Shown in pieces: positions 9,733 through 43,732 of a stretch of 64,000 nucleotides of DNA (position 1 is its first letter; each line of letters starts with the position of its first letter). Under the pieces are notes generated by a model. It made no database searches. It worked only from the letters and a program-made list of their open reading frames with translations, and had not been told where the DNA came from. This stretch comes from Perkinsus chesapeaki (Eukaryota > Perkinsozoa > Perkinsida > Perkinsidae). The stretch covers positions 62,001 through 126,000 of the forward strand of contig JAAPAO010000010.1 in the NCBI GenBank assembly GCA_013115145.1, in the 5' to 3' direction. The position numbers were made by a program, and so were the translations under genes.

Positions 9733-12700
9733 ATGTCAGGCACTTCATCATCATCATCCTTTAGCTCGAGTGATACAAAAGGAGATATCGAATGGGATGG
9801 ATTGGAGGTACTGTATGGTTCACCTAGAAGAGCATCTAGGCTCTTCAGCGCCTACGGGGGCAGCGGCGGCCTGCTGACACAAAGAGCGGTGTCTCCCCGA
9901 GCACGATTGAGGATGTCTGCATGGAGCATACTGGCCATACTCCTAGCAAGCTGTTGGCCTCGTTGGCGATTTGACGATGTTTCTTGAAGTGATGGAGAGT
10001 TGAGTTAGTCTCAGCAGTATGCCGTTGATCAGCATAATATAGTTAATGCGGCCTGGGTCACCGACACTCGCCACGGACACTTCAGCATCATCAGGAAGAC
10101 ATCAACGAGAAGCCAGTGAGGGCCAGAAGGCAAGCGACTGGGAAGAATACATTTAATAAGGCAGCGGTGACAGGTTCGATCGAACGCCTTTGCAAGCATG
10201 AGTAAGGAGGTTAACCAAGCTAGGCTGGGGATGCTAGGGGAACTTATGGAGAATAGGAAACGAGCTGAAGTAAAGGGCACTATGGGAGTTTGTGAGGAAA
10301 GTTTGGTATGACGGTGGTTTAGGAATCGGAGCAGTTCTTCTTGACGAGGATGCAGCAGGAGGCAACGAGCTTCCAGCAACTTGTACAAATGTTCGAGGAT
10401 TCCCTCGGGAAGGTAGGGAAGGTGTTTGTATTTCTGTCTTACCCGCTTCCACGTCTTATCTTCATCGAGAGGTGTTAGAATACCTGCGAGCCTTTCTCCG
10501 TTTAGTTGTATAATTTTCTCGCGGGATCACCTCTGAAAATGTATCTCTTAATACTGCGAGGTACCAGAATTGACCTCAGTTCCCCCTACAGTTATACTTC
10601 CTTCTGGACAACAGATGGAGTCGGCTGCCTTCACATATTTCAAATCATTTGCGGGCACTGCTTGAACTGGGGTGCCTCGCGCACGAACGCAACTGAGAAT
10701 TCGGGAATGTGTACAGGAGGTCGACAAAATTTTACGAAATCTTTCCCGGTCTACAGATTGGCATTTATCTCATCGATAGGTGACTGCAGACCTAGATAGT
10801 AGACTTGCTGGCTTCATTCGTGCCGAGGATGCGGAGCGTTTGGTTACGGAAAACAACAAATCTCTTGAGGAGAAGTACGATGATGTCGCAGCTTCATGTG
10901 ACACTTCCCGGCCTACCCAGGATATCCAGTCTGGAAAAGAAGTTGGATATGAAAGCTCACGAAACAAGTGCACGGATAGCTTGTGTCGAAGCATCCCTTT
11001 CAGAAGTCGAGAAGCGGGTAGGTTGGTTAGGAAGCGATTTGGAAATCATTCTATTAGTAATATAGTACATAGGATTTAATGCTTGCATTTACTAGTATAA
11101 TATAGATAACTTATACTGTATTATTATAATATAGATAACCTTTGGTATGTTATACAGAACATTAGGATTCACATACATGTATAATTTCATAACAGTGAAC
11201 TGATTACATATACTACTCCCCATCTTACATTAGGTGTCTCAGTTGAAGGAGGAGAAAGAAGAGCAATTGGTCACATTGAATTCCAAGATTACTGTAAGTG
11301 GCTCGGCATCGGGGGGGACATGGCAGGCTTTTATCTCAGGACATCTCGACATCTTACAAGGCAGAAATTGCGACCTCTCAATCTGCCGTGAACTCCCGCA
11401 TCTCTGCGATGGAGGAGAAAATGCAAAGTAGTTTGTGTAACATAGAAGATGAAATGAAGCAAGGTAAACTGGGCGTTGCGCACTGTGAAGATTTCCCGCG
11501 GCGGTGATGGCCCTGTCAGGATTCTCTACCGTGAACAGCGAGAGGCTGGATGCTATGGAGGGAGGCTTGTCCGGTTTAAGCTCGAGACTAGACGCATTCG
11601 ACTCGAAAATCGATGCTGTTGATAACTGCATTATCAGCATACAAGCGAAGCACGAGAAGGATCGGGAAACAGGTTAGTCGGGTGGACGGCATAAGTTGCA
11701 GGGAGAGGAAGTGGTTCAGAATCGGGGCAACGTGAGCAGATGGAGAAGGCACGAAAGACGCTGGAGGACAATATCAAGGGCAAGCTGGAGGGCATTGAAC
11801 AGAAAATATCTGAGCTTGAAGCAAGTAAGATACGCTGACCTCGACGTGGACAGTCTTGAGGTGCCGTGCACTCGACGATTTCAAATTGATATCTAGTTGG
11901 CAGAATTCTTGTTCAGATGTTGCAATGAAGACCGATTCTGAAACAGTAGTGCAGAAGTGCGAGGAAATGGTCGCGGGAAGGCTATCAACTTGTGAGGGGA
12001 CTTCGATCGGGTCCGTTGTAGAGGGAGGCTCCGTTCAGTGTCATCCGAGCTGGATTCTCGATTTGAAACTATCGGCAAACAGATGTTGGATTTCCAGAAG
12101 ACCTGTGACGATCAAACTGAGGAGTTCGCTGCGGAACAGGAGCATCTCAAGGAGGAATTAGGTGGGCGACAAGCATCTTATGGCAAGCAGCTGTGAGTTT
12201 TTGTATTTGCAGGCAAAGTGCACGAAGTAGCGAAGGCTGCGTCAGTTGATGGAAGTGAGAAGAGCGCTAAATTAGAGTTGAAATTACAGCGGGATATTAA
12301 AGGTAAGGATCTTATAGATCACCAATTCGAAACTACGGACTTGATTCCCTTTGGGATTCAACGTGCGTTTTTGCTCGTAACGTCTGGAGCGCTAGTTTGG
12401 GTTCGCTGTGGAGGACTGTTTCAGATATCACCAAACAGATTGAAGTTGTGCAACCACGGATTGATGACATTCAGCGAGATATTCAAACTAAACTCGGGCT
12501 GTGAGCATTCGAGCATCGCCAAAGGCCGTTTGGGTGCATGCTGTATTTCAGGATTTCTCGGAAGCTGCGGCATCTTTCTCATTCCGGTTTGAACCACACT
12601 TGGAAGCTGACTGACGCTGTAGGATGGTTAATTCTCCAGTCTCCGACAGAATCTTCAGCTCAACAAAATTGGCGCATTGGGTGTCTCCGCTGGCCGCTTC

Positions 12701-15328: not shown

Positions 15329-16621
15329 TCACATATAGGCAGTCTGCTGGATAATAGTAGCAATTACGGAACCAATCAGGATACCACAAATGAGACCAAA
15401 GGCCATCACGTAACCGGCAATCTCCAACTCATCCTGCTCGTTCTGGTCCACTTGAGTTGGACCATGAATCATACACCACGAGGCCACAATACCATTGGAA
15501 CCGGCGAATAAGGCCATGATAACGAATCGGAACCAATCTTGGCTGAACGGCGATATCGTCAATTCCGCACATAAGAAGAACAATGCAATGAAAATCAAAC
15601 GACCAAATGAGGCAAAGCGAGTTCCTCGTTTAGACAAGCGTAAATGATAACTAGGGGAGGAACGGCCAATGGTATCAAAGACTTGATAGCAATAGGTCAT
15701 GAGCTGACCGAAGAGGCCGACAGATAGATCAGATGGCTTCATCTGGAAGACGAGCCAAGGGAAGACAGTGAAAGTAATAGTGAAACTAAGCCACACGTTA
15801 AAGGCTTGTGGCATAGTATCCCACACGACGTGACCGAGAGGGCGCTTCATCTGTCTTTTCAGCTCGAACTTATGTCGACCTTCCTCAAGCTCAAGAACAC
15901 CAGACATTAAGGGATGACGCTGCATACCATACTTGTACATAGGAATGGTAAGGAAGTTAGCAATCATTCCCAGACCAAAGAATAACACCATACGAGGGTA
16001 AGCGTAGTCGGTGACACCGCAGCCTTGAAGTATGGCTTGGCAGAGCCTGTCAAGGGGCCAAGCAATGAGGCCGGATACACCCTCACCTATAAGAATGAAC
16101 TCGGTGCATACAGGGTCCACGAGTGCAGCCAAACCAAACATAGATGATTCCATGAGCGAGTTGGCAAAGCCGAAAATACCAATGAGAGCACAACCAGCTC
16201 CGAAGCCAGCCGCGTGGTCGTTCCTGGCGAATGTGATGGCACAAACAGCAATAAGAATCATGCTTATACCCATAACGATACAGCCAGTGTAGAAACGAGG
16301 ACCGAATTTGAATCGGTTACCGATCCATACAAGCATCAACTGACCAGCATTGATGCAAAGTGAGTAGCACAGAGAGCACCAAGTTCCATAGGCATCACCG
16401 AAGGCATCAATTAGTGTGCCCAGCTCGCCAAGAATGAAGTTCCAACCAAGAAGGGCTACACAGCCAATAACACAGAACATAGCCTTCAGTTTCCAGTCAA
16501 CATGTTTTCTCTCGTCTTTTGCTGGTTGGACAGGAACAGCCTCCTCCATAGACTCAACGGTAGTCGTATCATCTTCGTTAGGAGTATTCTTCTTTGGAGC
16601 GAAGCAAGTGAAGACGGTCAT
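15329..16621 (-). CDS. Equilibrative nucleoside transporter family protein, copy 1
   Basis: ENT (SLC29) proteins move nucleosides or nucleobases across membranes, usually with eleven helices. This intronless gene gives about 430 residues when started at MTVFTCF, the start that matches copies 2 and 4; the frame stays open for 65 more codons upstream. Family marks are LLGWNFILGE in helix 1 (the ENT 'PWN' region), FTITFTVFPW, RLIFIALFFLC (ENT helix 8 type) and SNGIVASWCMIHGPTQVD, followed by AGYVMAFGLICGILIGS, which aligns with the ENT C-terminal 'SNG..AS.CM..GP' block. The short N-terminal tail is hydrophilic and contains CF, possibly acylated (inference). It is the most downstream of four tandem same-strand copies. 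Confidence 0.9.
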   Translation of the reverse strand: MTVFTCFAPKKNTPNEDDTTTVESMEEAVPVQPAKDERKHVDWKLKAMFCVIGCVALLGWNFILGELGTLIDAFGDAYGTWCSLCYSLCINAGQLMLVWIGNRFKFGPRFYTGCIVMGISMILIAVCAITFARNDHAAGFGAGCALIGIFGFANSLMESSMFGLAALVDPVCTEFILIGEGVSGLIAWPLDRLCQAILQGCGVTDYAYPRMVLFFGLGMIANFLTIPMYKYGMQRHPLMSGVLELEEGRHKFELKRQMKRPLGHVVWDTMPQAFNVWLSFTITFTVFPWLVFQMKPSDLSVGLFGQLMTYCYQVFDTIGRSSPSYHLRLSKRGTRFASFGRLIFIALFFLCAELTISPFSQDWFRFVIMALFAGSNGIVASWCMIHGPTQVDQNEQDELEIAGYVMAFGLICGILIGSVIATIIQQTAYM

Positions 16622-16879
16622 AGGAAGGTAGAGGGGGCTGGTAAAGGAACTGAAAAACACGATTAAAGGTGCTGGCGCGGAAAATGAAAAAAGCACAAAT
16701 CGAAGGGTAAGAAACAATGTTGATAACCAACTTGCATATAGCCTACAGTAGGAGCGAGTAATCGAACTGTACAGGTGGCTCAATAGCCACCTCGCTGTTG
16801 AACTGGTGAACCTCAAAAATAATAATATTGGACCAGTAATCTCTGTACAAACTAGAAACTTGATTGTTAGCCGTTATAG

Positions 16880-18133
16880 TTACATATACGCAACTTGTTG
16901 AATGATGGTTGCTATGACGGAACCGATAAGTATACCGAATATTAGAGCGAATGCCATAACATAGCCTGCGACTTCCATCTCCTCCTTCTCAGACTGATCA
17001 ACTTGGGAGGGCCCATGAATCATACACCATGTTGCTACCACACCATTAGAGCCCGCAAACAAAGCCATAATTACAAAGCGGAACCAGTCCTGATTGAAAG
17101 GGGAGAAAGTGAGATGTACACACAAGAAGAAGAGAGGAATGAAAATAATCCTCGCCAAACACGCATAACGCGTGACCTTCTTGCCGAGGCGAATACGGAG
17201 GTTCGGGGCAAAACGACCTAAAGTATCAAAAACTTGATAACAATAGGTCATTAGCTGACCGAAGGTTGTAGTAGCCATAGAGGATGGTACCATGTGGAAG
17301 ATAAGCCAAGGGAAGACAGTGAAGGTAATAGTGAAGTTCGCCCATACATTGAAGGCCATAGGCATAGTATCCCAGATAACCTTATTAATGGGACGCTTCA
17401 TGCTCTTGTTCAATTCGAACTTATCCCTGTTAGCTTCGATCTCGAATACACGGACCATATATGGATGAGTCTCTGTAGCATACTTGTACATTGGGATGAC
17501 TGCAAGATTAGCCAACAGAGCCAGCCCATAAAAGAATACCATCCTAGGGTACTGATAGTCAGTTACACCACATGCTTGAAGAATAGCCTGGCATAACATA
17601 TCAACCGGCCAGGCCAATAGACCAGCAACGCCCTCACCAATCATAATCCACTCGGTGCACTCGGAAGTAACAAGAGCGGCTAGACCGAACATAGACGATT
17701 CCATAAGGGCGTTGGCGAAACCGAAAGTACCGATGAAGACACAACCACATGCGAATCCTGCCCACTGATGCTCGCGGGCGAATGTTATGGCACAGATGGC
17801 AATGAGCATTTGCGAGATACCCATACCGAGGCAACCTATGTAGAACCTGGGACCGAACTTGAAACGGTTACCCATATAGACCAGCAGAAGCTGTCCAGCG
17901 TTAATGCACAGAGAATAGCACAGAGACACCCAGGTTCCATAGGATTCACCGAATGCATCAATCAGGGTACCCAACTCGCCGAGGATGAAGTTCCAACCGA
18001 GAAGGGCAACGCAACCGATGACGCAGAACTGAGCCTGAAGCTTCCAATCGCATCGAGGTTCAGTAACTTTCTTGACGTTGCTCGCACCGTCACTGTCCGT
18101 CTTGGGAGTTGCAAAGCACGAAAAAATATTCAT
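16880..18133 (-). CDS. Equilibrative nucleoside transporter family protein, copy 2
   Basis: An intronless gene of about 417 residues starting MNIFSCF, paralogous to copies 1, 3 and 4. It carries the same marks: LLGWNFILGELGTLIDAFG, FTITFTVFPW, RIIFIPLFFLC and SNGVVATWCMIHGPSQVD. Between helices it has the family-specific TECTEWIMIGEGVAGLLAWP, shared closely with copy 4, while copies 1 and 3 share the FILIGEGVSGLIAWP version. The array therefore seems to contain two subtypes. Substrate unknown; nucleoside or nucleobase uptake is expected from the family. Confidence 0.9.
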   Translation of the reverse strand: MNIFSCFATPKTDSDGASNVKKVTEPRCDWKLQAQFCVIGCVALLGWNFILGELGTLIDAFGESYGTWVSLCYSLCINAGQLLLVYMGNRFKFGPRFYIGCLGMGISQMLIAICAITFAREHQWAGFACGCVFIGTFGFANALMESSMFGLAALVTSECTEWIMIGEGVAGLLAWPVDMLCQAILQACGVTDYQYPRMVFFYGLALLANLAVIPMYKYATETHPYMVRVFEIEANRDKFELNKSMKRPINKVIWDTMPMAFNVWANFTITFTVFPWLIFHMVPSSMATTTFGQLMTYCYQVFDTLGRFAPNLRIRLGKKVTRYACLARIIFIPLFFLCVHLTFSPFNQDWFRFVIMALFAGSNGVVATWCMIHGPSQVDQSEKEEMEVAGYVMAFALIFGILIGSVIATIIQQVAYM

Positions 18134-19281
18134 TAGAGGAACAAAGCTGCACAAAGGTCGTGAGAGTCATGACCACCCCCCTCCCTATGAGTTCTCCCTA
18201 GTAATCTAGGTATCTAAGCTAATCATAACTCTAGTATATACTACTTGAGAGGATAGCTCTCCAAGCATCTAAGTTCCCCATCAAGCAGCACCAACAGCTG
18301 TATTCAATCCCCCTGGGCTGTCTCCTCAACACAGTTCTTAGCGTGAGTTCCCCTTTGTGTGCTACTCTGTCCCCCTACCGCAAGAAAAGAGGATGGGCTC
18401 GCCCTATTCACTAAAAAGGCGGGAAACTGAGCGCAAAGGTTGATAGAACGCATCCGCCTAGTTGTAATTTGCGCCACGAAGTATGCGCGGGGGAGTGAAC
18501 CTACCAATTGCACGCACGCGCATAGCGCGAGGAACATGGCCAAATCAAAGCGAGCGCTCTGTGGACGAGGAATACTCGGTGAAGGAAAACGAGAGCATCC
18601 CTTATGATAAGTTCACAATGAGGTTACTTTGATGAATGCGGAATGAGGACACACAAACGCCAGGCGCACTTAGGAAGCCAAAAAATTAATAAGGAACATC
18701 CAGACTGAGACCCGACACGTGCTAAATACCCGGACAAACTCCTACCGATAACACCGTTTGATTATTAATTGACTGCAAGCGGACAAGTATGAGGACATAC
18801 TGTGCATTGTGATTGTAGTGTGCACTGGGAACTTCTGGATGATGATGGTGACCCACCGCACAGCGACTCAGCAGGGCCTCTGCCTTACATACTCCACCAT
18901 GGGGTTCTATAACCCGCTTTTCTAACAGCTTCGGTTTATACCCACAGCTTACAACTGAAGCTTTGCACGAATATGGAGACAGTTTCACTTCTCGTAACAC
19001 AAGTTTTGCTGAACAACGCGATGTACAACTACTCACCCATTAGAGGGTACCATTCGACCGAGGAGCGCAGCCACCCAAGTACCACGCTTTTCAGACAAAG
19101 GTCAACTCAACAAACAATATTTTCTTTTTCAAGCGTGATGTCTGTGGATTGGTATCCTCTTTGGAGATAAGTGTGAGTTTAAAACAGCTCATTAGCACTA
19201 GTAAGTTGAAGGTAAGGAGGGTACACGGCAGTGGTTCGAAGAAAATGCTAATCAAGCCTGGTTGAGACAAATAACTCACAA
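18134..19281. other. ENT intergenic region, no supported gene
   Basis: About 1.1 kb between ENT copies 2 and 3. Open frames here are short, and none resembles a known protein. It should contain the promoter of copy 2 and the 3' end of copy 3. Confidence 0.5.
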
Positions 19282-20649
19282 TTACATGTACGCAGTTTGC
19301 TTAATAATAGTAGCAAGAACGGAGCCTGTTAGGATACCGCAGATCAAACCGAATGACATAACATAACCGGCGATCTCCAGTTCTTCCTTCTCGTTTCGAT
19401 CGACCTGCGTAGGGCCATGAATCATACAAGAAGCTGCGAGGATTCCGTTGGTTATCCCCAAGAAAGCCATAATAACGAAGCGGAACCAATCCTCAGAAAA
19501 TGGTGCAAACGAGAGATGTATACACAGAAAGAACAAAGGAATAAAAACCAGACGGCATAAAGCAGCATACGGGGTTGCCTTTTTACCCAGACGAACGTGA
19601 TAGGATGGCGACGCACGTCCTACTGTATCACATACTTGATAACAATACGTCATCAGTTTGCCGAACTCTGTGGGGGATAAGGAAGATGGACTCATCTCGA
19701 AGATGGTCCATGGGAAAACAGTATAAGAGATAGTAAAGCTGAACCAGACGGTTAGAGCCTGTGGCGCTACATCGCGAAGGATACAAACCAACGGACGCTT
19801 TGTCTCTTTCTTTAAACAGAACTCCTGGCGGCCCTCTTCAATCTCAAGGGCCTTTATAATAACAGGATGATGCTGCATAGCATACTTATACATAGGAATA
19901 GTAGCAAAGTTGACGAGCATACCGATACCAAAGAATAGTACCATACGGGGATAAGCGTAGTCGGTGACACCAAAGGCTTCAATGATAACTTGGCAGAGCA
20001 TATCCAACGGCCAGGCTATGAGACCGGATACTCCTTCGCCGATCAGAATGAACTGCATTGATACTGGACCAACTAAAGCAGCCAAACCAAACATGGTGGA
20101 CTCCATAACCGCATTAGCAAAGCCATAGACACCCACGAACACACAGCCTGCAGCGAGCCCAGCCATCTGGTTGGTCCTGGCGAATGTGATGGCGCAAATA
20201 GCAATAAGAATCATGCTTACACCCATGACGAAACAACCAACGTAGAAACGAGGACCAAACTTGAATCGGTTACCGAACCAAATAAGGGTTAGCTGACCAG
20301 CATTAATACACAGAGAGAAGCACAGCGAGCACCAGGTGCCATAGACCCCGCCAAAGGCATCAATTAGTGTACCCAGCTCGCCAAGGATAAAGTTCCAACC
20401 AAGAAGGGCTACACAGCCAATAACACCGAACATAGCCTTCAGTTTCCAATCGATGTACATGTTCTTTGGTGTCTTCGCGCTTATACCCTCTATAGAGGAC
20501 GTATCAACTTCAATGGAAGGATACCGGCTCTCTGCGGACGCGAAAACCTTGGCCCTCGGCGAAGACTCGGCCAGTCGTGTCATTAGCGAAGGAGCAGCAC
20601 TGTCGAAACTAAACGAGAAATCCTTACTAAGAATCTCTCGGGAACTCAT
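19282..20649 (-). CDS. Equilibrative nucleoside transporter family protein, copy 3
   Basis: An intronless gene of 455 residues. It has the same transmembrane core as its neighbours (LLGWNFILGELGTLIDAFG, FTISYTVFPW, RLVFIPLFFLC, GYVMSFGLICGILTGS). It differs in a longer N-terminal tail, MSSREILSKDFSFSF, that lacks the CF motif and is rich in Ser, Thr and acidic residues. This cytosolic tail could be a regulatory or sorting region (inference). The GIT replacement of the usual GSN before NGI is a small local divergence. Confidence 0.9.
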   Translation of the reverse strand: MSSREILSKDFSFSFDSAAPSLMTRLAESSPRAKVFASAESRYPSIEVDTSSIEGISAKTPKNMYIDWKLKAMFGVIGCVALLGWNFILGELGTLIDAFGGVYGTWCSLCFSLCINAGQLTLIWFGNRFKFGPRFYVGCFVMGVSMILIAICAITFARTNQMAGLAAGCVFVGVYGFANAVMESTMFGLAALVGPVSMQFILIGEGVSGLIAWPLDMLCQVIIEAFGVTDYAYPRMVLFFGIGMLVNFATIPMYKYAMQHHPVIIKALEIEEGRQEFCLKKETKRPLVCILRDVAPQALTVWFSFTISYTVFPWTIFEMSPSSLSPTEFGKLMTYCYQVCDTVGRASPSYHVRLGKKATPYAALCRLVFIPLFFLCIHLSFAPFSEDWFRFVIMAFLGITNGILAASCMIHGPTQVDRNEKEELEIAGYVMSFGLICGILTGSVLATIIKQTAYM

Positions 20650-21132
20650 AAGTTAGAAATATGCCGAGCCCCGACGCTTCAATCCCTTCCGCTAATTCAA
20701 TAACCCGCTTGATCCAGCACGGCTTAATGAAACATATCGCTGTATTTAATGCAATTCCGCCGAAGTGTGCAGCACAGACCCACCCATTCTTGATTTAAAA
20801 TCTCACTTAGCGCCACATGAATGGTATGGTTGGTAGGAAACAAATGATCATCGATAGATGCTGCTGTTGTTGTTTTATTATTATTAAAGATATAGACAGT
20901 GGTAGAACAAACTGTTAATAGTAGATACATTTTGTGGTCTAGGGCCAATATGGCCAAAATGCATCCATACCGCCCCAACTAAAGTGCTACGAGTTCAACA
21001 GGTTTTCACCGTCCCCTAGAACGAGGCCGGTTCCCTGGTGAGTATAAAGCGAAACGCCGGAGACACCGGTCGACAGGCGGCAATAGCGGGTACCCGCGGT
21101 GGCTGATAAACTAGGATCATACAAGAACTATT
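20650..21132. other. ENT intergenic region
   Basis: Roughly 480 bp between ENT copies 3 and 4 with no convincing gene. It must hold the promoter of copy 3 and the 3' untranslated region of copy 4. Confidence 0.5.
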
Positions 21133-22413
21133 TTACATATAAGCACACTGCTGTATAATGGTAGCGATAATAGAACCAAGGAAGATACCGAGAATAAGGG
21201 CAAATGCCATAACGTAACCAGCAATCTCTAATTCTTCCTTCTCATTTTGGTCTACTTGCTCGGGGCCGTAAATCATACACCAAGTGGCAACAGAACCATT
21301 GGTAAAGGCAAATAGGGCCATAATTACAAACCGCCACCAATCAGAGTGGAATGGAGGAACATCAACGCTGAAGTTGAGGAAGAATAATGCGATAAATATT
21401 ACTCGACCGAGAGCAACCCATCGAATTATCTTCTTACCAAGACGGAAGTGCAGATTGGGAGAGAATCTACCGATGGTATCAAAAACTTGGAAACAGTAAG
21501 TCATCAGTTGACCAAACTGATCTGTTGAGAGTGCCGAGGGGACCATTTGGAAGATAGTCCACGGGAAGACAACGAAACTGATCGTAAAGCTAGCACACAC
21601 ATTGAAGGCCATGGGGATAGTATCCTTAACAACCTTGCTGGTAGGTCGCTTCATAGTCTTCTTAAGTTGGAACTTCGCTCTATCTTCCTCAATTTTATAT
21701 ACAGGTTGCATGAAAGGATGCTTTTGCATACCAAACATATACATAGGAATAATAGCAAAGTTAGCAAGCATAGCCAAGCCATAGAAGAAAATCATACGAG
21801 GGTACATATAATCAGTCACACCACAGCCAACAAGGATAGCCTGACAGAGTCTATCCACAGGCCAGGCCAATAAACCAGCAATACCCTCACCGATCATAAT
21901 CCACTCTGTGCACTCAGCAGTGACAAGAGCGGCTAGACCGAACATAGACGATTCCATCAGAGCATTGGCGAAACCGAAGATACCCACAAAAACGCAACCA
22001 AACACGAATCCAAGAGTTCGGTTTTGTTGAGCCCAAGTAGCAGCGCAAATGGCTAACAATATCTGGGACAGACCCATACCAATGCAACCAATATAAAAAC
22101 GAGGGCCGAACTTGAACCTGTTACCCATATACACCAGCAGCAGTTGGCCGCAGTTAATAAAGAATGAGTAACATAGAGACACCCAGGTTCCGTACGCCTC
22201 ACCGAAGGCATCGATAAGAGCGCCCAGTTCACCAAGGATGAAGTTCCAACCAAGAAGGGCAACACAACCAATGATACAGAACATAGTCTTTAGTTTCCAA
22301 TCGCAGGTTGGCTCCTTGGTCACCTGGGTCGTTGCTTTAGAGGAGCCCGGAGAACCCGCCTCGGTCACCTCATCATCGTGTTTCTCCTTCTTCCCAAAGC
22401 ACGAAAATGCCAT
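21133..22413 (-). CDS. Equilibrative nucleoside transporter family protein, copy 4
   Basis: An intronless gene of about 426 residues started at MAFSCFGKK, by analogy with copies 1 and 2; the frame extends 29 codons further upstream. Family marks are LLGWNFILGELGALIDAFG, FTISFVVFPW, RVIFIALFFLN and SNG-like NGSVATWCMIYGPEQVD, followed by AGYVMAFALILGIFLGS. The TECTEW-type loop (here AECTEWIMIGEGIAG) groups it with copy 2. It is the most upstream member of the tandem array. All four copies lack introns although most neighbours have many. Confidence 0.9.
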   Translation of the reverse strand: MAFSCFGKKEKHDDEVTEAGSPGSSKATTQVTKEPTCDWKLKTMFCIIGCVALLGWNFILGELGALIDAFGEAYGTWVSLCYSFFINCGQLLLVYMGNRFKFGPRFYIGCIGMGLSQILLAICAATWAQQNRTLGFVFGCVFVGIFGFANALMESSMFGLAALVTAECTEWIMIGEGIAGLLAWPVDRLCQAILVGCGVTDYMYPRMIFFYGLAMLANFAIIPMYMFGMQKHPFMQPVYKIEEDRAKFQLKKTMKRPTSKVVKDTIPMAFNVCASFTISFVVFPWTIFQMVPSALSTDQFGQLMTYCFQVFDTIGRFSPNLHFRLGKKIIRWVALGRVIFIALFFLNFSVDVPPFHSDWWRFVIMALFAFTNGSVATWCMIYGPEQVDQNEKEELEIAGYVMAFALILGIFLGSIIATIIQQCAYM

Positions 22414-22867
22414 AGTCAAAAAGTTTAAACTGAAAATAAACCTCGAATGATTCAAACCCACGTGCAATACTACAGGTGTGAAAAAGTACACCCTCGCCAA
22501 TTACACCCCTACCGGAAGGCACACTCAACCGACCTACAACACTAGCTACTGCTGGACACAGCATCGCTAGCGCAGCTCATATCATAGCGGCTTGGACACA
22601 AAAGGGGGACAATCAGAGATACCACCGTGGTCACTGAACACTGGTCAGCACGCATGCCCACCGCACGGTTGGTTCCCCTCGACAGCGGGGCAATCTCGGG
22701 GAGACTATTAAAAACTCAACAGGACATAGCAGGGCAACGGGGTAGGTGACACTGATGTGGAGGAGCATGCTTGAGTGGTACCAAGCCTACGGTCAGGAGA
22801 ATCTTCGAGCTCGCTAGCAGTTTGCTTGCTCATGCCTTTTCGAGTAAGGAGCGCCTCGGCTGGGCTC

Positions 22868-24061: not shown

Positions 24062-25329
24062 TCAACAATAAGGATAAGCTTCCAACCAATGATGCCCGCA
24101 AGCACGCAGGTTTGTGATTGAAATACACCTGCACCAGTCATACGTAAGATCTTCCCATAGTGCCGTACTGCCTGCCGAGGCCAGCCTAGCGGCTAGATTG
24201 TCCACTTGAAAAGTTATTTCCCTTGACGTGCAGTTGGCGACTAGCTCCACAGCGTCTCCTAATGCTTTGCTCTGCTGGTCGAATCGTTCAGTCCTCGATT
24301 CAGCGTCGGCTTGCATTTCATCGAAGCGATTGGAGAAGTCATTCAGTTGATGTGTGGCGGTTGCCTGTTGGAAAGACTAATGAACGCGAGCACAACCGCG
24401 TGCGGATACCTCTTGTAGACGGACGTAGAGGTTAATAGATGTCATAGCCCGGCAATAACATAAAGAATTAGTAAGACAGCGTGTCCGAGTGGTTAAGGAG
24501 GTGGACTAGAAATCCACTGGGCTCTGCCCGCGCAGGTTCGAATCCTGCCGCTGTCGATTTTCGAATACGCTCATTTGTTCTTGCTCCCCTACAGCGATCG
24601 GGCGTAACCTCTACCGTTTTGTTTTTCGAATAAGGAACAACACTACGTCATCATGTCGGGACTCACCGACACTTTTCTTATCAACCCATCGGCCTCTTCC
24701 ATTCGCATATCGAAGCGCTTTTCTGTCGACTCCAGCGCGCCACTTAATTCCTCGTGTACATAGGAAATCCTGTTGTTGACTTCCATTATTTTCATTTCTA
24801 ACGTTGCACTGATCTTCTCCATCGCTCGACTCAGTCTCGCAACTTCATTCCGCAGATCTGATGCTCTCTCTGATTGAGACTCTTCTTTCCAAGCACAGAA
24901 CGCCTCGTCCAGGCCACATCCCTCTATACCTGCGCAGCGGGTGGCGAGCTACTCATCCCTAAGCCACGTACCTCCGGCTTCATCCCTTACCCTGCGGAGA
25001 AGTGATATGGCCAAACGATGCCTGGTTTGTCGGAGCTGCTCCTTAACGCCAGTGAGCCGCTCGAGTTCTGCCTTACTCCGCGCGTTTTCGTTCTCCGCCT
25101 TTTTATATTTCAATTCCAACTCCCCTACCCGCGACTCCAACGACTTCTTCATCACATTGAAGCCGTCGAGAAATTCACGGAATGATTTTTGAGTCTGAAG
25201 CCCGAAGGCCGCCATGGATAGGCAATTTCGCACTGACACCATCAACGCGTCGTTCACCGTGTATGCTCTATGGGATGACCACCTCAAAGGCCTGTCCGGG
25301 ATGCCCAAACGGTAGTGGCTCGGAACCAT
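24062..25329 (-). CDS. Coiled-coil protein with tRNA gene in an intron
   Basis: Exon 1 (from 25329) includes SFREFLDGFNVMKKSLESRV and long heptads such as ENARSKAELERLTGVKEQLR. A 42-nt intron follows RRVRDEAG, and exon 2 continues GIEGCGLDEAFCAWKEE, then LRNEVARLSRAMEKISATLE and RFDMRMEEADGLIRKV. A GTGAGT donor there opens a roughly 280-nt intron that contains a tRNA-Ser gene on the opposite strand. The next exon reads ATATHQLNDFSNRFDEMQAD, then FQVDNLAARLASAG. Function unknown; it is similar in design to the coiled-coil gene at 9.7-13.4 kb, but homology was not shown. Confidence 0.6.
24475..24556 (+). tRNA. tRNA-Ser(AGA), intronic copy
   Basis: An 82-nt type II tRNA. The acceptor GACAGCG pairs with CGCTGTC, the anticodon stem GTGGA/TCCAC encloses CTAGAAA (anticodon AGA), there is a long variable arm as expected for serine, and the T arm has GGTTCGAATCC. 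A TTTT run at 24558-24561 supplies a Pol III terminator. It lies antisense within an intron of the coiled-coil gene. Confidence 0.97.
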
Positions 25330-37421: not shown

Positions 37422-37503
37422 GACAGCGTGTCCGAGTGGTTAAGGAGGTGGACTAGAAATCCACTGGGCTCTGCCCGCGCAGGTTCGAATCCTGCCGCTG
37501 TCG
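37422..37503 (+). tRNA. tRNA-Ser(AGA), second copy
   Basis: Identical over all 82 nt to the tRNA-Ser at 24475-24556 (same acceptor, AGA anticodon, long variable arm, T arm). The flanks differ, and unlike the first copy there is no TTTT run immediately downstream; the first oligo-T appears only about 235 nt away. It may be a recently dispersed copy. Confidence 0.95.
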
Positions 37504-40356: not shown

Positions 40357-41062
40357 TATTTGAATAATAAAACTAACGATTAGTTGTAGTATAATTGCCT
40401 TCTTCAGCAGATTTCGATAAAGTTCCCTCAGCGATCACAAACGGTGTGCTTAAAAACAAGTCTGCCGAAAGTCAACCACAATATCTTAAAATTCCGAGGG
40501 GGACTTTACGGGAATTTCCCCAAAAAGCAAATCCAAATTATTGCACGAACTCCTTCACTTTAATGTCGGATTTACGCTTGCAATCACCATCAACATCGCC
40601 ATCTCAATATCACTTCACATTAATAATATCGTAGAGCTTTGCAGCGACATTCCTGATGCTAAATACGAAGTCCTCGTCCTTCTACGGCGGCGGCCGATGG
40701 CTTAGAACTACTCCAATGGAGACACTAGACTAATATGTTGCGATGTGTGAAACAAGCAGCCCTCGAATGGTAGTGGAGATTCCACACTGTGGAACTGTAA
40801 CAAACAACAAATGTAAAGTAAGAAAATATGAGACACGTCTAGTGATGAGAATTCATGAGCAGGCGGTCATGCTTCAAGATATCTTTTCCTCTTTCTTCTG
40901 CTTACGACTTGAAGAGGTATATAAAAGAGTGCCGGACAACACCAATGTGACACCTGTGAGCTTTCCAGGAGTTAGAGCTTCGTCGAACAAATACGCACAT
41001 AGGACCATCTGTACCTACGACAACTACTAGGCGAAAGAAGATCAAATATAGCAGTGACATAC

Positions 41063-41273
41063 CACAGGTGGCCGGAGACGGGGCTGGAATGGGATTTATT
41101 GCACTAAAATTTTTACGACGGATTTGAGTTCTCCAATGTTCTAGGATCTTAAAACTGTATAGCTTAACGTCTGGGGTGACTGCGAAGAAAAAATACAGCA
41201 CGTCTAAAATTTGCGCACTTTTTGCGCGCAAAATGGGGGTCGCAGGCACGAATCCCACCCAGGACATTTTTAA
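41063..41273 (+). repeat. Left terminal inverted repeat
   Basis: 211 bp starting CACAGGTGGCC and ending near GGACATTTTTAA. It matches the reverse complement of 43478-43688 with about half a dozen mismatches. It contains the palindromic word TTTGCGCGCAAA-like run near 41221. Confidence 0.95.
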
Positions 41274-41529
41274 AAACTCACAATCTCAGTAGCCAAAAGA
41301 CTCCATGGCTGACATATATGATATTATAGAGCCATATCAAGTACCCAGAAAAATCACCAGAGCAGGACCGAGAAAAAAACTCGACCTGTCGGCTGTAGCA
41401 TGAATCGTGTAATAAATAGGTGAGCACCGCCTATGTAATCCGTGCTAGCTCCAACTTGGGAGTGGTGCAACCTCCAAACAGTCTCTCTTTCCTCGCGCTC
41501 AACACCCTCGTTTCCTATTACATCCAATA

Positions 41530-43388
41530 ATGTTTCTGAAGATCCCGGAAAAAATTGTGAAGACGGCTGATCCTCACCATATTGACAACCTTTACCGTGT
41601 TTGCCGCTTCTGCCATAAGCGAGTGACGTCATCGAGGGGTAAACCTGTCGGCTCCCCAGGCAAGAAGACCTGCGACAGGGCTAGCCGTTTTTATAATATC
41701 GACTTTAAGCGCGAGATCACAACCACACTACTACCCAAGATCCTATGCAAGGGTTGCACCCGACGCCTTACCCGGTTTGATTCGCAACCTGATACATACG
41801 AAGCATGGAACAGGGACGAAAGATGCTTCGTTGATGCTCTGGCTTTCGATGCTGACGGAGTGGCTACTCGTAGTAAAGCATGTACACAAGGAACTCCTTG
41901 TAAGGTTTGTCAGATTGTCTCCAATCGTGAGTCGAACCAGTTGCAGGCAAAGCGCTCGGATGCTCGAAAGCCAGGCAGGCCACTGGAGCAGTCTCCACCA
42001 AAACCTATATGCAAGAAGTGTGGTCTAGATTGGTTCGACCACGATAGTGTGACCTGCAGGCGAGTTATGAAGAGACCTGCTCATGCTGCTTTGGCGGGAC
42101 GCCTATTCGGTGAACGAGTGGCGGCTAGAGGCTTTACTAAGCAGCTTGTGCAGGAGCACTTGCGTGACCAGTTCACTTCCGAAGCCGGTGGATTGAGCTG
42201 TTCTACAACGCCTCAGCGCTCTGGTGTGAAGCTCAACAGTCATGAGTATCTAGGTATCACTCCGGCTCGCTACGACAATTCCTCTCCTGGCTTGTACATT
42301 TCTACCGACTCTGCTAGAGACCTGCTAAGGCTAGGTCATCTCGGTCTCGGCAAGAACAGTGCCCGCCGGTTGTGCACTATTCTTGCCCGCGAGGGCATCT
42401 ACTTTCCAAATGGAGGTCTCGAGGCATGCAGAAGCGAGCAATGGGTGGTGTTTGGTCGTATATTCCGCACCGAGGACCTTATCCTCGAAACTGACCGGCA
42501 AGCGGCTTCTTGCAAGGCTTGCAATGCAAGCACCCCTGTCCTTTCTGCTTGTGGTCTAAGGGCACTCGGTGTACTGGGCAGCCTCCGAATGGCAGAACGT
42601 GGGCCCTCCATCAACATCACCTTGCGGACCGTAAGTACAGTGTGGTGAACGAGCCAAGTGTACAGTGGGATGGTTCTCCCATGGAGGTCCTTTCATTGGC
42701 ACCCTTGCATCTGCTTTTGGGTATCACTAATAAGGTGTTCAAGGAGGTGTGTGATCTTGAGTCGGACAGCTCGCTTGCTAAAAAGCAGAAAGCTGCCTTG
42801 CTCAAATATGGTATTAAGCGTTCGGCTTACTTCCAGGGTGATCTTCAAGGCAACGAATGTGCACGCCTTCTAGACGCCGTTGCTAATAATAAGGTCCCTT
42901 TCCTGCGTGGGAAACAGCTGAGGTTGAAGGTGAAATGCTTGCAAAGCTTGAAGGTTGTCAAGGACAAGTGCTTGGGTCTGGTGAGAGTCGATGGTTGGGA
43001 TCGGGCTATTCATGACTTCCGGGAAGCATGGGAAGCGAGCGACTTATCCTGGACACTGAAGGTTCACATACTGTGCGACCATGGCATTGAGTACCTACGG
43101 GATTTCGAGAGCGACAATGCTGCTGGCTTGGGGCTATCTTCCGAGCAGTCCGGCGAGTCATTGCATGCCAGGCTCCAGCGGATCTGGGATATGAGATTTC
43201 GAGTAAACCCCGAGAACCCCCTCTTCGGCTCTCGCCTGACCGACTGCATGGTCGCCTACAACTGGAGCCTGCAGTGGGATGAAGGTGGACGACTGCGACG
43301 CTCAGGCCAGCAAACGTCCAGCAGCGACTGCAACACTACAAGCTGCAGCGGAGTTTCGGGTATGGAGCATCTTTCCGAGCTGTCCTAG
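41530..43388 (+). CDS. Transposon protein, RAG1-N-like zinc fingers, frameshifted
   Basis: Frame 1 (41530-42648) starts MFLKIPEKIVK. It has CRFC, then RFYNIDF, then CKGC, then W and PCKVC: the same order as the zinc-binding N-terminal region of RAG1 (CxxC, FxIDV, CxxC, TPSCDIC). A fourth cluster CKKCGLDWF follows, then a helical block LLRLGHLGLGKNSARRLCTI. Frame 3 (about 42510-43388) continues with CPFCLWSKG, RTWALHQHHLAD, PLHLLLGITNKVFKEV and SEQSGESLHARLQRIW, patterns typical of transposon-encoded proteins of invertebrates. The switch of frame near 42530-42540 breaks a CxxC pair and needs a -1 or +2 shift: a disabling mutation, a sequencing error, or programmed frameshifting. Catalytic residues are not assigned. 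Confidence 0.8.
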
Positions 43389-43477
43389 CTCCTGTAATTT
43401 TTTTATAACATCTCACAGTTGCTTCGTGATATGTAGTAGCCTCTGAGTTGTCAATAGACCCGGTTTTGGAGGACTTC

Positions 43478-43688
43478 TTAAAAATGTCCTGGGTGGGATT
43501 CGTGCCTGCGACCCCCACTTTGCGCGCAAAAAGTGCGCAAATTTTAGACGTGCTGTATTTTTTCTTCGCAGTCACCCCAGACGTTAAGCTATACAGTTTT
43601 AAGATCCTAGAACATTAGAGAACTCAAATTGGTTGTAAAAATTTTAGTGCAATAAATCCCATTCCAGCCCCGTCTCCGGCCACCTGTG
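43478..43688 (-). repeat. Right terminal inverted repeat
   Basis: 211 bp, reverse complement of the left repeat with a few substitutions clustered near the AATTTGAG segment (43629-43640 on the plus strand). It ends CCACCTGTG next to the ATAC duplication. Confidence 0.95.
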
Positions 43689-43732
43689 ATACGGGACAAC
43701 TGATTGGTAGGAAAAATATACAACTTCAGTTT

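Follow-up and report, generated by a model that had tools for sequence, protein, structure and literature searches.

Does the element at positions 41063-43688 of this 64,000-nucleotide stretch of the Perkinsus chesapeaki genome (contig JAAPAO010000010.1, called the window in the following) bring a part of RAG1 into a single-celled eukaryote? A sequence-only reading of the window had described a protist DNA transposon with 211-bp inverted repeats, an ATAC duplication, and one protein, the first half of which resembles the N-terminal region of RAG1 (RAG1-N), and had stated that its second half does not correspond to the RAG1 core. The present analysis indicates, with a probability of about 70%, that the element is a non-autonomous, internally deleted, Chapaev-like cut-and-paste transposon of the CMCT clade, which includes Transib and RAG1, in an alveolate of the Perkinsus lineage.

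Both termini of the 2626-bp element were confirmed to the base (left CACAGGTGGCCG, right CGGCCACCTGTG). The two arms of the terminal inverted repeat (TIR), at 41063-41273, beginning with CACAGGTGG, and at 43478-43688, terminating with CCACCTGTG, are 211 bp long each and identical at 206 of 211 positions (97.6%), far beyond chance. They are flanked by the target-site duplication (TSD) ATAC at 41059-41062 and 43689-43692. Repeats, duplication, and coordinates are therefore exactly as had been read from the sequence alone.

A search for further copies, which the sequence-only reading had proposed, was made in the genome of the window (35.4 Mb, 884 contigs), and the copy numbers are lower bounds. 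Matches to the terminal repeat, at least 32 in number, were found on at least 15 contigs including that of the window; apart from the element itself, all of them lie within its terminal regions. Coding relatives are present on at least 11 other contigs (C179, C701, C41, C68, C637, C280, C488, C545, C334, C567, and C290), and C720 contains an additional, distant one. A scan of 24 sequences for element tips revealed two good tips in the window and on C23, where they enclose a miniature element of 119 bp (L020:1464-1582; TSD ACAG). A 1550-bp element on C701 (L047:1615-3164; TIR of 183 bp, 180 identical; TSD ATAT), in which the transposase match is limited to the C-terminal part, was found separately. 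Four sequences of the scan (L022, L045, L054, and L057) gave an ordered tip pair only when one tip had 3-4 mismatches, they had no common 4-mer, and these pairs are taken as chance; the remaining sequences had no second tip in order. The TSD is thus 4 bp long in all three window-family elements with two readable ends (ATAC, ATAT, and ACAG).

Two sister families were also found. The C720 element (L050:2949-5331, 2383 bp) has a TIR of 136 bp (134 identical), starts with CACGGTG, and is flanked by the 5-bp TSD CGGCG; it contains an open core frame of 462 aa and, upstream and overlapping it in another frame, a zinc-finger-like frame of 253 aa. The third family is represented on C100 (L073:1168-3809, 2642 bp; TIR of 141 bp, 139 identical; start CACGGTAGGG). 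Its two open frames of 332 aa (N-terminal part) and 422 aa (core) overlap by 11 bp, and among the sister families it is nearest to an intact transposase. Both flanks carry the 7-mer CGGCGCG, so that the boundary, and hence the TSD length, is ambiguous. The near-identical TIR arms (97.6% in the window element, 98-99% in the others) suggest that the insertions in the window and on C701, C720, and C100 are not very old. The C100 sequence also contains a perfect 19-bp hairpin at L073:3561-3599. Beside the C720 element, on the minus strand of L050:288-1466, a 393-aa frame has the retropepsin-like stretch IIDSGASLSL, recognized by eye, and is probably part of a retrotransposon.

The single protein of the sequence-only reading turned out to be two overlapping frames on the plus strand. 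Open reading frame 1 (ORF1, 41530-42648, 372 aa) comprises a zinc-finger-like N-terminal domain (Chapa/RAG1-N/zf-AD-like) and the region up to an internal deletion, and ORF2 (42510-43388, 292 aa) comprises the C-terminal part of a DDE transposase core. The homology of ORF1 to its relatives stops near residue 325, and its final approximately 47 codons lie outside the ancestral frame. In the C637 copy, 366 bp lie between the sites that match ORF1 residue 324 and ORF2 residue 7, compared to 26 bp in the window (42502-42527, plus strand). Judged from this alignment, the window copy lacks about 340 bp, a length not divisible by three. The distance between the matches is even longer in C179 (768 bp), apparently due to extra sequence in that copy, and in the 155-aa piece of C637 the match to the window begins only at residue 113. 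The segment that is present in C637 and missing in the window includes LDGG with the predicted first Asp and, 70 residues away, ACDLK with the predicted second Asp. The predicted second Asp of C637 lies 19 residues before CPFC, and the Asp of GYDEK in human RAG1 likewise lies 19 residues before CTLC; the RAG1 residues in question are, as we take it, D600, D708, E962, C727, C730, H937, and H942. Because the deletion spans both predicted Asp residues and is not a multiple of three, both are lost and the frame is changed, and the window copy is unable to encode a complete DDE enzyme. It is hardly credible that the two frames instead represent a working two-protein or programmed-frameshift design. 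Both are long and open, but neither predicted catalytic Asp is present, the break in homology coincides with the change of frame, and the length of the missing segment does not preserve the frame. The copies on C179, C637, and C41 are each split, and no family copy that was read has an unbroken frame from the N-terminal domain to the predicted catalytic Glu.

For the second half of the protein, the analysis contradicts the earlier claim that it is not the RAG1 core. ORF2 contains CPFC (42537-42548), the predicted C(2)C half of the zinc motif of the CMC/Transib/RAG1 core (defined in PMC12730594), HILCDH (43065-43082), the predicted H(4)H half, and SSEQSGESLH (43137-43166) with the predicted catalytic Glu of the DDE triad, all on the plus strand. 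The Glu is placed by its position opposite ASEGNESGN of RAG1, in an alignment that is itself not significant. The second half of the window family is homologous to C720, with a score of 31.2 bits compared to a best score of 5.4 in 1000 shuffles. The solved structures that best match the model of the C720 core are HzTransib and RAG1, and HzTransib is the best fold match. An RNase H core with a zinc-containing insert, closest to Transib/RAG1 among solved structures, was therefore found in the sister C720 only, and the window family is tied to this fold via the sequence homology of its second half. The two Asp, the Glu, C(2)C, and H(3-4)H are spread over open pieces of C637, C41, C179, and C701; in the core frames of C720, where the zinc halves read CxxC and HxxxxH, and of C100 they are present as a whole set. 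In its build, the transposase of the Perkinsus elements appears to resemble RAG1, the recombinase of antibody genes.

The CMCT elements have C(2)C and H(3-4)H in common, mostly have CA..TG ends, and produce TSDs of 2-5 bp (PMC12730594). Hallmarks of Chapaev are a TSD of 3-4 bp and CAC...GTG termini (PMC4079192), whereas the TSD of Transib is 5 bp (PMC4411706; PMC8355894). The window family has both a 4-bp TSD and 5'-CAC...GTG-3' termini and is Chapaev-like by these hallmarks, and C720 with its 5-bp CGGCG is Transib-like. We infer from the ends and TSDs that the window family belongs to Chapaev rather than to a neighboring CMCT lineage; the N-terminal zinc-finger-like domain and the DDE core, whose C(2)C and H(3-4)H residues are spread over pieces of the relatives, would be further features in common. 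It differs from described Chapaev elements in its perkinsid host and in the lack of two catalytic residues in the window copy. That the window element is a Transib-type transposon is quite unlikely. The 5-bp TSD, the CACGGTG ends, and the best fold match of its sister C720 would fit, as 5-bp TSDs are typical of Transib (PMC4411706; PMC8355894), but the TSD of the window family itself is 4 bp in three of three cases, and the family is far diverged from C720. It also has an extra N-terminal zinc-finger-like domain, which canonical Transib elements lack according to the relevant part of PMC4411706.

Several points weigh against the Chapaev-like assignment. The fold evidence stems from the sister C720, which has a 5-bp TSD, and not from the window's own protein; the C720 core is only 21-28% identical to the window ORF2 (28% over 171 aa), and the mean pLDDT (predicted local distance difference test) of its model is 63. 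Direct comparison of the core-alignment profile with RAG1 was not significant (P=0.2), and an hmmsearch of the PDB sequences with the core profile A1 gave no match at E<=10. A 4-bp TSD also fits other superfamilies, e.g., Sola and Ginger. Lastly, the element is filed under Chapaev by described hallmarks rather than by direct protein similarity.

The resemblance of the first half to RAG1-N is more difficult to judge. The stretch in question (41602-41910, plus strand) contains CRFC (41602-41613), YNID (41692-41703), CKGC (41746-41757), the Trp of YEAWN (41797-41811), and PCKVC (41896-41910), and is followed by the basic motif RKPGRP (41965-41982, plus strand), which we take to be AT-hook-like and of which GRP is retained in all five alignment rows that reach it. 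The order of the Cys motifs and the Trp is as the sequence-only reading had given it, but its FxID is really YNID; its PCxxC is present as PCKVC, but RAG1 reads PSCDIC at this place. An alignment of six N-terminal pieces has 17 invariant columns, including C25, D58, C73, and C76 of ORF1. The register of CRFC and CKGC weakly matches both zf-AD and RAG1-N. With hhalign, the alignment to mouse RAG1-N has P=0.0019 over 59 columns with 31% identity, at a probability of only 14%; the two CxxC pairs are in register, and so is the YNID/FRID stretch. With human and mouse RAG1 rows the value is P=0.0031, and the score was equalled in 3 of 300 Cys-preserving shuffles, which is borderline. In the HMMER profile test, by contrast, the RAG1-N score was reached in 45 of 500 shuffles, which is not significant, and the Pfam model RAG1_imp_bd, which matches RAG1-N at 1.2e-62, had no match in ORF1 at E<=10. 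A further similarity search for the RAG1 N-terminal region found nothing, and neither did its control genomes. RING had no match in ORF1 at E<=10 either; C545 alone showed a weak match to Prok-RING_4 (E 0.1). The predicted structure of ORF1 was too poor for use. Therefore, the claimed resemblance holds for the Cys pattern and is suggestive only. Compared to vertebrate RAG1, the N-terminal domain is a possible homolog, and the core of the window family has no significant direct sequence similarity.

The same results bear on the view that this is an N-RAG-TP-type element, defined by a RAG1-N-like protein and unrelated to the RAG1 core. The motif order, the YNID/FRID register, and the hhalign values favor it, but the HMMER and RAG1_imp_bd results do not, and we regard it as very improbable. 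The N-RAG-TP protein is described as entirely RAG1-N-like (PMC8355894), while the second half of the window protein belongs to a family with a RAG1/Transib-fold core. Set beside the Aplysia N-RAG-TP by description only, the window family has a similar order of RAG1-N-like Cys motifs, but it additionally encodes this core.

The one recurring weak Pfam match is zf-AD, which was found in the window ORF1 (E 0.13) and in three of the four other N-terminal pieces scanned, i.e., C567 (0.037), C179 (0.11), and C545 (1.1, outranked there by Prok-RING_4), but not in C334; no zf-AD match was found in the N-terminal frames of C720 and C100. All matches cover profile positions 1-58 or 1-59 and are far under the 28-bit cut-off. 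The sequence-only reading had named, as grounds for rejecting the RAG1-N resemblance, that some unrelated family of zinc fingers matches better, and zf-AD does recur, yet mouse RAG1-N itself matches zf-AD in the same register (E 0.0047, positions 2-57, also under the Pfam cut-off). A distant link between the zf-AD and RAG1-N zinc domains is thus possible, and the window domain and RAG1-N, both distantly zf-AD-like, may be of common descent. In the literature, the RAG1-N-like zinc finger of Chapaev is called the Chapa domain and is described for TransibSU as well (PMC4411706). It is also conceivable, though unlikely, that the family falls outside both Chapaev and Transib, in a different or new lineage of the CMCT clade that gained a zf-AD-type domain independently of RAG1. 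The recurrence of zf-AD in the window family would agree with this, and so would the low N-terminal sequence similarity of the three families: CxxC...CxxC is visible by eye in the pieces of C720 and C100, but their similarity to the window family is not significant (scores reached in 242 and 23 of 500 shuffles, respectively). However, ends and TSD carry the hallmarks of Chapaev, and zf-AD-likeness does not discriminate, as RAG1-N shows it too. The likelihoods of these readings overlap in part, because a Chapaev-like element may also carry a true RAG1-N domain.

For the Chapaev-like element, a mechanism can be proposed from the less damaged relatives. Across their open pieces, these would encode one transposase with an N-terminal zinc-finger-like domain followed by an RNase-H-fold DDE core, which carries a CxxC/HxxxxH zinc insert as in RAG1 and Transib. 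By analogy to its CMCT/RAG1 kin, the zinc-domain transposase would bind and pair both long TIRs, cleave beside the terminal CAC, and integrate the ends at a target site cut with a 4-bp stagger, which would yield the 4-bp duplications. The window copy, which has kept both TIRs, could be mobilized in trans by the enzyme of fuller copies.

The assignment to a single-celled eukaryote, made in the sequence-only reading, is corroborated by a Perkinsus-type spliced leader. The pattern CCGTAGCCATYTKGGCTCAAG has eight exact matches in the genome, all of them CCGTAGCCATCTTGGCTCAAG, and the backward control has none. The matched leader equals the PmaSL1 exon of Perkinsus marinus minus its first A (PMC3101222), and the TTTT form described for the dinoflagellate leader (PMC3388326) has no exact match in the genome. 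An exact leader and a C720-related copy are both present on C829, and C23 has the miniature element together with a leader-like site that differs by one letter from PmaSL1 and by two from the searched pattern. This co-residence argues against contamination. On C829, the C720-like copy (C829:9641-10892) is followed after about 100 bp by the leader (10991-11011), which lies on the other strand. Another DNA transposon with a DDE transposase, Dada, has been described for Perkinsus marinus (PMC3706591). The TSDs of Dada are 6-7 bp long and lie within small RNA genes, and the relevant part of the same source reports no TIRs for Dada-U6 and Dada-U1. In contrast, the window element has a 4-bp TSD and 211-bp TIRs, lies outside all three of the window's identified tRNA genes, and is thus not assigned to Dada. 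Two of the tRNA genes are tRNA-Ser(AGA) genes about 13 kb apart (24475-24556 and 37422-37503; Rfam score 59.1 for both), possibly a duplication. At 15329-22500, four nucleoside-transporter genes are arranged in tandem on the minus strand, and all four match Pfam Nucleoside_tran.

Chapaev and Transib are known superfamilies; new are the host group and the occurrence of 4-bp and 5-bp families together in one perkinsid genome. No report of Chapaev in Perkinsus was found in the literature searched, which did not cover Repbase, where an entry may exist. The GC-rich 5-bp duplication of C720 is Transib-like, and its end CACGGTG is one base from CACAGTG, the signal heptamer. Perkinsus may have at least three diverged families with RAG1 architecture, C720 among them, in which a zinc domain of the RAG1-N type is combined with a RAG1/Transib-fold core. 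If so, the bipartite plan of RAG1 might be older than animals, or it might have been transferred between molluscs and their protist parasites; this wider reading is tentative and, at present, somewhat doubtful. The origin of RAG1 has been told mainly from animals, and the relevant part of the legend of the Transib-superfamily tree in PMC4411706 names only animals. Molluscs are the phylum of the reported N-RAG-TP and oyster RAG-like elements (PMC8355894). With such elements in an alveolate of a mollusc-parasitizing genus, it can now be tested whether the fusion of zinc domain and core predated animals, and whether such elements passed between the parasite and its mollusc host.
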